Assembly: GCA_902619265.1 (NCBI GenBank) | Contig: CACNDL010000004.1 | Location: 1 to 64,000, forward strand | Direction: 5' to 3' | Origin: an uncultured SAR86 cluster bacterium | GTDB lineage: Bacteria; Pseudomonadota; Gammaproteobacteria; Magnimaribacterales; TMED112 | Length of the DNA: 64,000 bases | Shown here: one piece after another, positions 7,393 through 13,182 of the stretch | How positions within the stretch are numbered: the stretch's first letter is position 1 | Layout of the letters: each line of letters starts with the position of its first letter | Position numbers and translations under genes: made by a program | Notes under the pieces: model-generated | The model's database searches: none | Told to the model about the DNA's origin: nothing | What the model saw: the letters and a program-made list of their open reading frames with translations, nothing else

Positions 7393-8214
7393 ATGATCTA
7401 CAAAAAATTTAAAGATAAATATTTCCAACTATTCGTTAAAGGTGCTCTAAATGGTGTTTTTGAAAATGATCTAGATCTCATTAAAAAGTCTGTTAATAAG
7501 CATTTAGTTATCGTTTGTTCTCCTAAGTCTGGGAGTACCTGGTTAACTCGATCGCTACAGGAAATAACAAGTTTTAAAAGACTTGATCTTATCGCAAGCT
7601 TTGAGCGCAGGGAACAAGAAATTGATTTTTATCATTTGTTGCAACAAAAACCATCTGGAGAAATATTATCACCTCATATTCATCTCAAATATAGTGAATT
7701 TTCGGAAAATTTATTCATGTCTATTGGCTCAAAGATTATCTTACAAGTACGAGATATTTTTGATTCTGTAATAAGCCTTGTTGATCATGTTGATAAAGAA
7801 GGTGTTAAATTTCCAAGCGCATTTATTGATCATGAGTCATGGATTAGTTTTTCAAGATTTGAAAAAATTGAGTTCATAATTGATATGGCAATTCCTTGGT
7901 ATATATCCTTTTATGCTGGATGGTATAATTCAAAAATTTTTCAATCGGGAGGAGTTTATCTAATCACATATGAAGAATTGTTAAAAAGTACTGCAGAAGA
8001 AATAAAGAATATCCTTGATTGGGCAGACATAAAAAAGGATAAAAGTGAAATTATTCTAGCCCTTAAGAACACTTCAAAAATAAATACTAGAAAAAATGTT
8101 GGCCGAGCAGGTCGTGGATCGGAAATACCAGTACCACTGAAAAAAAAGATAATTAAAATGGCTGCTTATCATCCAAATGTTGACTTTGGGCCCTTAGGAA
8201 TTGGTTTAGATTAG
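7393..8214 (+). CDS. PAPS-dependent sulfotransferase
   Basis: 5'-PSB motif LVIVCSPKSGSTWLTRSLQEI; ILQVRDIFDSVISLVDH (3'-PB-like); YEELLKS. Confidence 0.85.
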   Translation: MIYKKFKDKYFQLFVKGALNGVFENDLDLIKKSVNKHLVIVCSPKSGSTWLTRSLQEITSFKRLDLIASFERREQEIDFYHLLQQKPSGEILSPHIHLKYSEFSENLFMSIGSKIILQVRDIFDSVISLVDHVDKEGVKFPSAFIDHESWISFSRFEKIEFIIDMAIPWYISFYAGWYNSKIFQSGGVYLITYEELLKSTAEEIKNILDWADIKKDKSEIILALKNTSKINTRKNVGRAGRGSEIPVPLKKKIIKMAAYHPNVDFGPLGIGLD

Positions 8215-8982
8215 ATCATCCGATTGGGATCTAAGACCCCTTGCTAAAAAGTTTGGATTAAGAAGATTAGATTTATTATATTTTAGGTTTTGTTTTTTTA
8301 CAGATATAAGCTCACCGCCGGCTTCTTGTAAAATTAAATCAGCTGCAGCGGTATCCCATTCCATCGTTGGCCCATATCTAGGATAAAAATCTGCAATGCC
8401 TTCGGCAACCTTACATATTTTCAATGAGCTACCATACTGCAACACATTAATATCATATCTTTTTGAAAGCTTAACAATAAAAGCTTCAGTTTCTTTATTT
8501 AAATGAGATTTACTAGCTACAATGTTTATTTTTTCTTCAATTGATTGATTTGAATGTATCTGTACTCCATTTTTATATGCTCCCTTATCCTTTTCAGCGT
8601 AAAATAATTCATTTCTTCCAGGTACATATACAATTGAAAAAATCGGATATTCATCAAAGCATAGTGCTACATTTAACGTGTAATCGTTACTTTTATTTAG
8701 GAATTCTTTCGTCCCATCAATAGGATCAACTAGCCAAAACCAGTTCCAGCTTTCTCTTTCAATGTAATCAATATTCTTATTCTCTTCAGAGATTATATTT
8801 TGGTAATCTGTTTTCTTTATGAATTCATTTAAACTTTTATTTACTAAATTATCTGCTTCTGTAAGTGGTGATCCATCTTCTTTTAGTTCATATCTAATCT
8901 TTCGTTTTTTTATATTCTCAGCCTCTTTGCCAAGATCTTTCAAAAGACTAAATAAATAATTTTTTTCTTTTGTACTAATCAT
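8206..8982 (-). CDS. cysQ: 3'(2'),5'-bisphosphate nucleotidase (PAP phosphatase)
   Basis: inositol-monophosphatase fold motifs SEE, WLVDPIDGTKEFLNKSNDYTLNVAL and EWDTAAADLILQEAGG. Confidence 0.9.
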   Translation of the reverse strand: MISTKEKNYLFSLLKDLGKEAENIKKRKIRYELKEDGSPLTEADNLVNKSLNEFIKKTDYQNIISEENKNIDYIERESWNWFWLVDPIDGTKEFLNKSNDYTLNVALCFDEYPIFSIVYVPGRNELFYAEKDKGAYKNGVQIHSNQSIEEKINIVASKSHLNKETEAFIVKLSKRYDINVLQYGSSLKICKVAEGIADFYPRYGPTMEWDTAAADLILQEAGGELISVKKQNLKYNKSNLLNPNFLARGLRSQSDDLI

Positions 8983-9209
8983 CAGCTACGACCTATTTTT
9001 ATGTAACGGAACCATATTCTTTCGTGAATGTAATATAAAACCATTTTTGTAAGAATTTCGAAAGTTGCGATTCCTGCTGCCCAATCGACTTTCCCTGTTA
9101 TTAACAGAGAAATAATGAAAGTATCAGTGGTAGCTATTACACGCCAGGAAATAGTTTTATAGAGATGTCTTAATTTAAGGTTGTTTTCTTTTTCAGAGTT
9201 TGCCTTCAT
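8982..9209 (-). CDS. DUF2061-like small membrane protein
   Basis: 75 aa, RHLYKTISWRVIATTDTFIISLLITGKVDWAAGIATFEILTKMVLYYIHERIW; two hydrophobic segments. Confidence 0.75.
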   Translation of the reverse strand: MKANSEKENNLKLRHLYKTISWRVIATTDTFIISLLITGKVDWAAGIATFEILTKMVLYYIHERIWFRYIKIGRS

Positions 9210-9582
9210 CTCGCATTTTTTTTCTTATGTTTGTTGCGCTTATATTATGTATTTCATCTTCAAAGACTTCTTCTTCAAAGACATAACCAACACCTCTTCC
9301 ATATGTGATATTTACTATGTTTGGCACAAGCATAATTTCGTATTCTTTCCCTCTTCTAAAACCATCTTTTGCTAATCCATTTTCAATATTTTTGCACACA
9401 GTTTCCCAGTCAAATGGGTTATCATCTTGACCAGCACCCCCTGATGCCCCTTGAACATCTCTTACTTGTATTGCTACTTGACCTGTCTTTGCAACACATC
9501 TTTTAAAAAGTGCCTGGTGGCCATCATGCCATGGCTGCCATCTTCCAAGCATCTGTACAGTTGGTTTTTTCCAATCAAACAT
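9193..9582 (-). CDS. small HxGH-superfamily nucleotidylyltransferase (adenylyl/cytidylyltransferase-like)
   Basis: GRWQPWHDGHQALF (HxGH-type) and ISATNIRKKMRDEG (ISxTxxR-type) motifs; 129 aa. Confidence 0.75.
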   Translation of the reverse strand: MFDWKKPTVQMLGRWQPWHDGHQALFKRCVAKTGQVAIQVRDVQGASGGAGQDDNPFDWETVCKNIENGLAKDGFRRGKEYEIMLVPNIVNITYGRGVGYVFEEEVFEDEIHNISATNIRKKMRDEGKL

Positions 9583-9982
9583 TTTTTAACTCCTTTAAAA
9601 TAATTTTTGGCGTGTCCTCTTTCCACTCAGTTATATGAAAGTTTACTTTTTTGGGTGGTTCAAAAATTTTATTTGTGTCATCAAATCTACCTTTTTCAAT
9701 TGTATCCATCCAAATGATTATATCTGGATTAAATATCTCTCTTGTTCTTTCTGTAGGACAGACAAAATCGCATATTACATATCTTCCATGAGACTTTTCA
9801 AACTCTGCAAAGGTATTCATGCGCTGGCTTTGTCTTGATCTTCCTTCATCAGAAAAATCCCAATCCCCAGCCATTTCTCTAACATTGTCTGCGTTATACC
9901 AAGCACACTTCATAATTTCTTTTAATTTTTTTGCTAGATAAGTTTTTCCACTGCCGGGAAGACCCATAATTAGTATTTTCAT
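9575..9982 (-). CDS. adenylylsulfate kinase-like protein (APS kinase, CysC-like)
   Basis: P-loop GLPGSGKTYLAKKL; YNADNVREMAGDWDFSDEGRSRQSQRM resembling CysC DGDNVRxGLxxDLGFSxxDRxENIRR; CDFVCPTERTREIF. Confidence 0.75.
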   Translation of the reverse strand: MKILIMGLPGSGKTYLAKKLKEIMKCAWYNADNVREMAGDWDFSDEGRSRQSQRMNTFAEFEKSHGRYVICDFVCPTERTREIFNPDIIIWMDTIEKGRFDDTNKIFEPPKKVNFHITEWKEDTPKIILKELKNV

Positions 9983-10048: not shown

Positions 10049-10122
10049 TGGAGGCTGAGAACGGAATCGAACCGATGTACACGGAGTTGCAGTCCGCTGC
10101 ATAACCACTCTGCCACTCAGCC
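10049..10122 (-). tRNA. tRNA-Cys (anticodon GCA), CCA encoded
   Basis: acceptor GGCTGAG/CTCAGCC, anticodon loop CTGCAAC, U73 discriminator, T-arm GGTTCGATTCC, encoded CCA. Confidence 0.93.
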
Positions 10123-11039: not shown

Positions 11040-12404
11040 CTAATAATTATAAGAATCTCCTTTGAAAGGGCCATTCTCCTTAACGGAAATATATTCTTGT
11101 TGATGTTTTGTTAACTTTGTTAATGTACCTCCAAATCCTTGAACCATAAGAGCTGCAACTTCCTCATCAAGCTTCTTTGGAAGAACTTTAACATAAAGCT
11201 CTTTTTCTTCTGGTCTTTTTGAAGCATAACCATCTTTAAATAATGCTATTTGTGCTAAAACTTGGTTACAAAATGATCCATCCATAACTCTGCTTGGATG
11301 TCCAGTAGCTAATGCTAAATTAACAAGCCTTCCTTCACCTAATAATAATAAATAGTCCTCATCAGATCTTTTAACTTTATGGACACCCGGCTTAACTTCA
11401 TACCATTCAAAAGTTTTAAGATGCTTGATATCTATTTCATTGTCAAAATGGCCAATATTGCATATGACACAGCCTGACTTTAAAGCATCAAGCATAAATT
11501 TATCTAGAACATTAATATTACCTGTTGTTGTAACAACTAAATCATATTTTTTTAGTAATTCTTTATTAAGTTTTGTTCCATCACTAGTAACTTCACCTTT
11601 CTGATAAGCTGAAACTACAGAAAAACCGTCAAAACACGCCTGCATAGCGCATATTGGGTCCACTTCTGTAATATCAACAATCATTTTTTGCTGGGCGAGA
11701 GAGTCTGCAGAGCCTTTGCCAACATCTCCGTATCCTATTACAAGCGCTTTTTTACCGGCTAACAGCATGTCTGTGCCTCTTTTTATCGCGTCATCAAGAC
11801 CATGCCTACAGCCGTACTTATTATCATTTTTGGATTTAGTCAAAGAATCATTAACGTTGATTGCTGGCACCTTAAGCTCTCCAACTTCGAGCATTTCTTT
11901 AAGCCTCTTAACACCTGTTGTTGTTTCTTCAGAAATACCATGAATTTTTTCTAGCATATCAGGATATTCCTTGTGAACTTTGACAGTTAAATCGCCTCCA
12001 TCGTCTAGAATCATATTGGCATTCCATGGTTTGCCATCTTTATTAATTGTTTGATCAAGACACCACTCATATTCTTCTTCTGTTTCACCTTTCCAAGCAA
12101 AAACTGGAATTCCTTTTGCAGCAATAGCTGCAGCAGCATGGTCTTGGGTAGAAAAAATATTGCATGATGACCATCTCACTTCTGCACCTAAGTCAATTAG
12201 TGTTTCTATAAGAACTGCTGTTTGAATAGTCATGTGAATACAACCCATAATCTTTGCACCTTTAAGAGGCTGCTCGTCACGATAATTTTCTCTCAATTGC
12301 ATAAGAGCTGGCATTTCATCTTGTGCGAGTAAAATTTCTTGTCTTCCAAATTCTGCTAACGAAATATCTTTTACTTTATAATCATTCATCTTTATTGCCT
12401 TCAT
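11040..12404 (-). CDS. ahcY: adenosylhomocysteinase
   Basis: [43 protein letters not shown] motifs. Confidence 0.96.
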
Positions 12405-13182
12405 AAAACTCTAATCTTTCAATATCATCTTCAGAGGTCTCATCACCATATTGAATCTCAATTATTCTACATTCTTCAGTGTAAGGATTATATATTTGAT
12501 GCCAATCTTCTTTGCCTACTTTGAATACATCATGCAAATCTAGTTTTTCAACATGCTTATCTTTTTGTTTAGCCCTCTGATACTTAACATCACATCTGCC
12601 TTTAGAAACAAACCAAATCTCATCTCTATTAAAATGTCTTTGCAAACTCATACCTTTTCCGGCATGAATTATTAACTCTTTTAATTTAATTTTTTCATTC
12701 TTGTAAAGATTAAAAAATTTTCCCCAAACCCTATCTTCAGCTTCGCCAAGCCAATTTTTAAGAATCCAACTGCTTGAATTCTTTTTATCGTCACCACCAA
12801 CTCCAAATTCAAATTCTATATTTTCAACAATCATTTCTGGTATATTAGTTTTATCTCGATCGCCACCATTACAAAAAATTATTTGGTTTTCAGGATAAGA
12901 AAGCTTGATTTGTTCTAATGCATTACAACAACTTCCATCACTATCATCAAAATCTATAACCTCATTAACTGCTTTCAGATTTTCTAAAATTTCTTTTCTT
13001 TCATTAAAAGACATAAATGGTTGTCCTTTTTTTTCTGTTAGCCAATTATCAGAATTTAAAGCTACTATCAGGTGATCTCCAAGTAAGCTAGCCGTATTGA
13101 TATATGCAAGATGACCAGAATGTAAAGGATCAAAACCTCCACTTACAACGATAATTTTCATAGTTTTTTTGCTTTTTCCCAC
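12382..13182 (-). CDS. nucleotidylyltransferase-cupin fusion protein
   Basis: N-terminal [16 protein letters not shown] cytidylyltransferase motif; C-terminal [25 protein letters not shown] cupin of mannose-6-P isomerase type. Confidence 0.75.

Follow-up and report, generated by a model that had tools for sequence, protein, structure and literature searches.

A small NadM-like nucleotidylyltransferase as a candidate third form of ATP sulfurylase in marine bacteria and viruses

The contig of an uncultured SAR86 bacterium analysed here (the window, 64,000 nucleotides) carries at positions 9193..9582 of the minus strand a gene for a 129-aa HxGH nucleotidylyltransferase (termed here NT), read from an ATG start, which is a candidate APS-forming ATP sulfurylase and, judging from genome context, most likely makes APS. 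The explanation that best accounts for our observations, and in which we have considerable confidence, is that NT represents a third, NadM-like ATP sulfurylase, that either a linked short kinase (KIN) or the ordinary APS kinase CysC turns its product into PAPS for sulfotransferases, and that CysQ clears the resulting PAP. Sulfate enters biology through ATP sulfurylase, of which two forms are known, Sat and CysDN, that are unrelated to each other. No earlier description of an ATP sulfurylase such as that proposed here was found in the open literature, a body of work to which most subscription journals and preprints do not belong.

The gene pair and its surroundings in the window

NT belongs to a run of minus-strand genes in the order KIN-NT-DUF2061-CysQ. 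KIN (9575..9982, minus strand) encodes a short, 135-aa APS-kinase-like P-loop kinase, for which we propose the conversion of APS to PAPS. The KIN and NT genes overlap by 8 nt and the ribosome-binding sequence AAGGAG precedes the NT start codon by about 10 nt, bearing out the placement of NT directly downstream of an APS-kinase-like gene in the first-pass annotation of this DNA. On the other side, the NT end overlaps the start of a gene for a small DUF2061 membrane protein (8982..9209, minus strand; PF09834, 75.2 bits), whose stop in turn overlaps the start of a gene for a CysQ-like 3'(2'),5'-bisphosphate nucleotidase (8206..8982, minus strand; PF00459, and TIGR01331 at 222.7 bits, just under the cut-off of 228.8), the proposed function of which is the removal of PAP. 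A sulfotransferase gene on the plus strand (7393..8214; PF00685, 53.4 bits) converges on the CysQ end of the run and is the sole PF00685 match at E <= 1e-4 in the window's source assembly, which comprises 974 kb and is 89% complete. Directly upstream of the run is a tRNA-Cys gene (GCA; 10049-10122, minus strand), a possible site of integration for the run as a cassette. Elsewhere in the window, between AhcY and MetK, a gene at 12382-13182 (minus strand) encodes an RfaE-II-like nucleotidylyltransferase (PF01467) fused with a mannose-phosphate-isomerase-type cupin (PF01050), and the same fusion occurs near KIN-NT in the marine viral contigs L069, L098, L100, L102, L104-L106, L110 and L112.

The 129-aa reading frame contains both GRWQPWHDGHQ and ISATNIRKKMR, exactly as the first-pass annotation had claimed. 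Full-length NT sequences with 80-88% identity are present in many SAR86 genomes as well as in bacteria labelled as other phyla, which shows that this is not a chance reading frame, and NT is under strong purifying selection at the level of the protein, the nucleotide differences between the window NT and one relative numbering 15, 8 and 60 at the first, second and third codon positions. The motifs of the protein are GRWQPWHDGH (13-22), R41, DNP (54-56), VPN (86-88), YGRxVGY (94-100) and ISATxIR (114-120). In an alignment of 95 sequences, 45 of the 129 positions are invariant, among them H19, H22, S115, T117 and R120, and the two catalytic motifs vary little or not at all. The second half of the protein contains an invariant loop, VPNIVxIxYGRxVGY, that is peculiar to NT, and the four arginines R14, R41, R96 and R120, likewise invariant, are putative binders of the ATP phosphates and of a small anion. 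The two motifs had been put forward as hallmarks of the superfamily that includes Sat-type enzymes; they are present, but are also typical of NMN and phosphopantetheine adenylyltransferases, and by themselves are therefore uninformative with respect to sulfate. Similarly, the small size that had been remarked upon is small for an ATP sulfurylase but not for the superfamily, in which the TagD-type glycerol-3-phosphate cytidylyltransferase is also about 129 aa long.

KIN passes the Pfam APS_kinase model (PF01583; 33.3 bits versus a cut-off of 21.1) and remains below the full-length equivalog TIGR00455 (25.2 versus 138.7 bits). Its main solved relatives in a PDB profile search, which rests on an alignment of KIN only, are APS kinases, and its AlphaFold model (pLDDT 91) is predicted to fold like an APS kinase, with TM-scores (query) of up to 0.85. 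When aligned with the CysC of another SAR86 genome (G170), KIN is seen to keep the P-loop, the DNxR motif, the Arg, Phe and Arg positions shared with CysC, and the FxxP motif, with G7-x-P-G-S-G-K13, D32, R35, F43, R48, R54, F73 and P76 all invariant or nearly so. It lacks the lid stretch DPKGLYKKAR...FTG and has Asn in place of the first Asp of the human APS kinase DGDN.

Distribution of NT, its kinase and sulfotransferases

Canonical ATP sulfurylases are nearly absent from the SAR86 order: Sat was detected in one of 204 genomes and CysN above its cut-off also in one, the remaining CysN matches being far below cut-off, as expected of other translation-type GTPases. The window's own genome contains no Sat and no CysN above cut-off, and its only PF01507 match, at 21.9 bits, is below cut-off. 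Sulfotransferases in general need PAPS. NT is present in 124 of the 204 genomes, 120 of which also encode a sulfotransferase and 4 of which do not, and among the others 18 encode a sulfotransferase only and 62 have neither; in the 40 near-complete genomes of the order, NT occurs in 22 and each sulfotransferase family in 21. Many of the genomes behind these counts are incomplete, and the contrast lies mainly between families (f3 and f4 versus f1 and f2), such that it is phylogenetically confounded. Within families, the association is not significant in the PF00685 data, which is due in part to incomplete genomes. The 61 genomes of f1 and f2 have neither NT nor a sulfotransferase, with two exceptions: the window's genome, which has both, and G186, in which NT is probably viral. 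Within the window's genus, a PF00685 match and a close CysQ are found in the window's genome only, at the same locus as KIN-NT. G186, from the same genus, carries a KIN-NT pair beside a carbamoyltransferase gene (L130, C3:27000-44000), and because its NT is only 60% identical to that of the window, about as distant as the viral copies, the pair is probably viral sequence within that assembly.

In family f4 of SAR86, a sulfotransferase (PF13469), KIN and NT form operons with short gaps, and in one genome (G164) KIN adjoins a sulfotransferase with NT located elsewhere. G170 carries CysD together with a CysN-CysC fusion (CysNC) and has no detected NT, a gene that most genomes of its family possess, although at 74% completeness the absence is suggestive and not certain. 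No PF13469 sulfotransferase was found in 3 of the 17 NT genomes tested that were non-SAR86 or otherwise named. The first-pass annotation had considered that a canonical sat or cysDN elsewhere in the genome, combined with no co-conservation, would refute a minimal ATP sulfurylase; we encountered neither, and co-conservation is strong.

A scan of a species-level genome collection yielded 420 encoded relatives of NT, the best 80 of which are mostly from SAR86, with others from SAR116, other Alphaproteobacteria, Woeseiaceae, Bacteroidota, Rhodothermota and Neomarinimicrobiota (names of metagenome bins as in their records, single ones of which may be wrong). Public viral contigs contain a further 136 relatives, and the NT tree divides bacterial from viral copies as two clades (100/99 support). 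KIN is situated directly upstream of NT, or separated from it by one DUF2061 or small reading frame, in 79 of 80 viral and 71 of 80 bacterial loci. DUF2061 lies between the two genes in 17 of the 80 viral loci and adjoins the pair in several bacteria, a position that suggests a role for this membrane protein in sulfate or PAPS metabolism. In Stenotrophomonas phages, kinase and nucleotidylyltransferase, in that order, are joined in a single protein of about 245 aa; a search with this protein returned no further fused phage homologues. Some of the marine viral contigs with KIN-NT (L033-L112) carry genes for UDP-sugar dehydrogenase, epimerase, KdsA/KdsB-like proteins, carbamoyltransferase and T4-like replication proteins, and within about 4 kb of the viral KIN-NT copies no sulfotransferase was seen by either motif or profile.

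Exchange of the kinase partner and the apr locus of SAR116

NT is also found without a neighbouring KIN, in 8 genomes from three other lineages (labelled Bacteroidota/Rhodothermota, Woeseiaceae and SAR116), and there its partner is exchanged: all eight encode a full canonical APS kinase (PF01583, E <= 4e-66), none encodes CysD, and seven have no Sat. An APS kinase without an ATP sulfurylase would be pointless if APS did not come from another source. CysQ comes next after CysC at four of the five Bacteroidota/Rhodothermota-labelled loci, and at the fifth the contig stops at this point. Canonical CysC was not found in 7 of 9 genomes with the KIN-NT pair, a difference from the lone-NT genomes (Fisher p = 0.002) behind which stand about three independent lineages, given the close kinship among five of those eight genomes.

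In two SAR116 loci (L194 and L205), NT is followed, after 110 bp, by an aprM-like gene, aprB (TIGR02060, 190 bits) and aprA (TIGR02061, 951 bits), and 1.2 kb beyond aprA by cysC; in one of the two genomes (G211), Sat is missing altogether. In Allochromatium vinosum, it is sat that directly precedes aprMBA, with which it is co-transcribed (PMC3779200), and SAR116 has been reported to possess aprABM and sat (PMC8547437). The SAR116 arrangement links NT with APS through a further pathway, one that is unrelated to glycans. Taken together, the exchange of KIN for CysC, the aprMBA locus and the sulfotransferase-KIN-NT operons support APS formation by NT much more than its motifs do.

NT and Sat occur together in G164, G210 and G217; outside these exceptions, NT shows the linkage expected of an ATP sulfurylase, being associated with an APS kinase, an APS reductase or a sulfotransferase where no other ATP sulfurylase is present. 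The KIN-NT pair coexists with a canonical APS kinase (CysC) in G217 and G218. In G164, a 717-aa protein (L132:6451-8604) unites a pyruvate-kinase barrel, PUA_2 and ATP sulfurylase, and in the SAR116 genome G210 Sat and a pyruvate-kinase-like reading frame adjoin one another (L271, 2156-3229 and 3245-4660). Sat may therefore serve another process in these two genomes, possibly a separate and undescribed use of this enzyme.

The gene neighbourhoods allow for a different assignment, in which the pair activates a surface-glycan precursor, either a sugar or a small alcohol, that KIN phosphorylates and to which NT adds a nucleotide to give a CDP- or ADP-linked intermediate, with the sulfur-related neighbours being incidental. 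The window locus and many viral loci do lie among genes for UDP-sugar dehydrogenase, epimerases, KdsA/KdsB-like proteins and carbamoyltransferase, and cytidylyltransferases are common among HxGH proteins of such a length. We nevertheless judge this assignment improbable: KIN is nearest to APS kinases in both sequence and fold, a canonical APS kinase accompanies the lone NT in every one of the eight genomes, NT precedes aprMBA in SAR116, and many SAR86 copies of NT are situated outside glycan clusters. Activation of a glycan precursor would, moreover, leave PAPS synthesis in these genomes unexplained.

Family relationships, proposed reaction and comparison with known enzymes

NT matches no Pfam family, even at E <= 1, and no Sat model is among its NCBIfam matches; it resembles the C-terminal half of phrog_10255. 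We could not recover any similarity to the Sat profile, and hhalign against three Sat sequences returned probabilities of 0.7-2%, which, along with the lack of a Pfam match, led us to reject a shrunken Sat. Sat binds sulfate through a QxRN motif (PMC3779200); NT has no such sulfate/phosphate loop before HxxH and reads GRWQ instead. The HxxH and SGTxxR motifs of Sat do have counterparts, in HDGH (19-22) and SATNIR (115-120), and the invariant G95-R96 within YGRxVGY, which is not followed by Asp-His, may be equivalent to the GRD loop of Sat. Nor does NT resemble CysDN, which combines a PP-loop CysD with a CysN GTPase partner, since its motifs are of the HxGH kind and no such family is among its matches.

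By both profile and predicted fold, NT appears to be NadM-like. Its best solved match in profile searches is the archaeal NMN adenylyltransferase 1f9a (E 1.4e-8), and a structural comparison places the predicted structure (pLDDT 82) nearest to another archaeal NMN adenylyltransferase, 4yp7 (TM 0.65, E 1.7e-3). The earlier suggestion of a minimal ATP sulfurylase gains support from genome context, but for a NadM-like protein and not for a relative of Sat. The missing QxRN and this kinship with NMN adenylyltransferases count against APS formation, as do the mainly between-family nature of the association with sulfotransferases, the many incomplete genomes, the genomes that combine NT with Sat or KIN-NT with CysC, the viral copies with no sulfotransferase seen within about 4 kb, and, in KIN, the Asn in DGDN and the lost lid.

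These same matches, and the precedent of NadR, which too combines an NMN adenylyltransferase with a P-loop kinase, speak for a different reading, in which NT is an NMN or phosphopantetheine adenylyltransferase acting in NAD or CoA salvage. We rejected this candidate as very unlikely because NT scores far under the curated NadM cut-offs (24.9 versus 127 bits for PRK01153, 22.8 versus 181.2 bits for TIGR01527), because the similarity is mainly in the ATP-binding half and the C-terminal motif, because its gene context is that of APS and PAPS metabolism, and because it is missing from 18 of the 40 near-complete genomes of the order, such that NAD or CoA synthesis cannot depend on it. There is scarcely any chance that NT instead serves the APS kinases, to which it is genetically tied, as an adenylyl-nucleotide-binding regulator or chaperone-like protein, without itself synthesizing APS: although the sulfate-binding residues of Sat are not conserved in NT, both of its catalytic motifs are invariant or nearly so across the 95 sequences, APS would be left sourceless in genomes lacking Sat and CysDN, and the position before aprMBA suits an APS-converting enzyme.

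As an ATP sulfurylase, NT would bind ATP through its HxGH and ISATxIR motifs, and sulfate would attack the alpha phosphate to yield APS and PPi. The linked KIN, or an ordinary CysC in other lineages, would then phosphorylate APS to PAPS, which sulfotransferases would consume, with CysQ destroying the leftover PAP. In SAR116, the reaction of NT is probably reversed, operating behind AprBA in sulfite oxidation to convert APS and PPi into ATP and sulfate. The computations establish the genes and their linkage, the scarcity of canonical ATP sulfurylases and the exchange of kinase partners; the reaction and its direction, the residues that would hold sulfate and the part played by DUF2061 are inferred. 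We consider it probable, taking all parts of this reading jointly, that NT constitutes a third evolutionary type of ATP sulfurylase (NadM-like, about 129 aa) that forms with the short APS kinase a two-gene PAPS synthase in marine bacteria of several phyla and in T4-like marine viruses, that it replaces Sat in the sulfite oxidation of SAR116, and that part of the annotated viral cysC belongs to this pair. If so, a third form of the enzyme has gone unnoticed behind labels such as kinase or cytidylyltransferase. Its recognition would account for the use of sulfotransferases by SAR86 and other streamlined ocean bacteria that have neither Sat nor CysDN, would correct pathway predictions that call such genomes incapable of sulfate activation, and would supply a concrete enzyme pair behind the cysC-like auxiliary genes of marine viruses.

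Among known systems, the Sat-type ATP sulfurylase (PF01747; PUA_2 plus a catalytic domain) resembles NT in its HxxH-type ATP site, in having an S(G/A)TxxR motif in the C-terminal part, in being linked to APS kinase and aprMBA, and in the reaction that we propose; NT differs in having no PUA domain and in its length of 129 aa, compared with roughly 360-400 aa in the Sat sequences at hand. CysDN (a PP-loop CysD with the GTPase CysN) catalyses the same reaction as that proposed for NT, which it apparently replaces in G170, but its fold is unrelated and NT is without a GTPase partner. Archaeal NadM (1f9a, 4yp7) has the GRxQPxHxGH and ISxTxIR motifs in common with NT, which is shorter, has VPNIVxIxYGRxVGY as its putative acceptor-substrate loop, and occurs in the gene context of APS and PAPS rather than NAD. 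The phage family of KIN-NT fusions corresponds to PHROG 10255 ('kinase'), whose description covers the kinase only and leaves the second half without a function. The order of the domains in this fusion, kinase and then sulfurylase, is the same as in human PAPS synthase (PAPSS), which joins an APS kinase to an ATP sulfurylase; in KIN-NT, however, both domains are much smaller, and the second comes from a different branch of the nucleotidylyltransferase superfamily.
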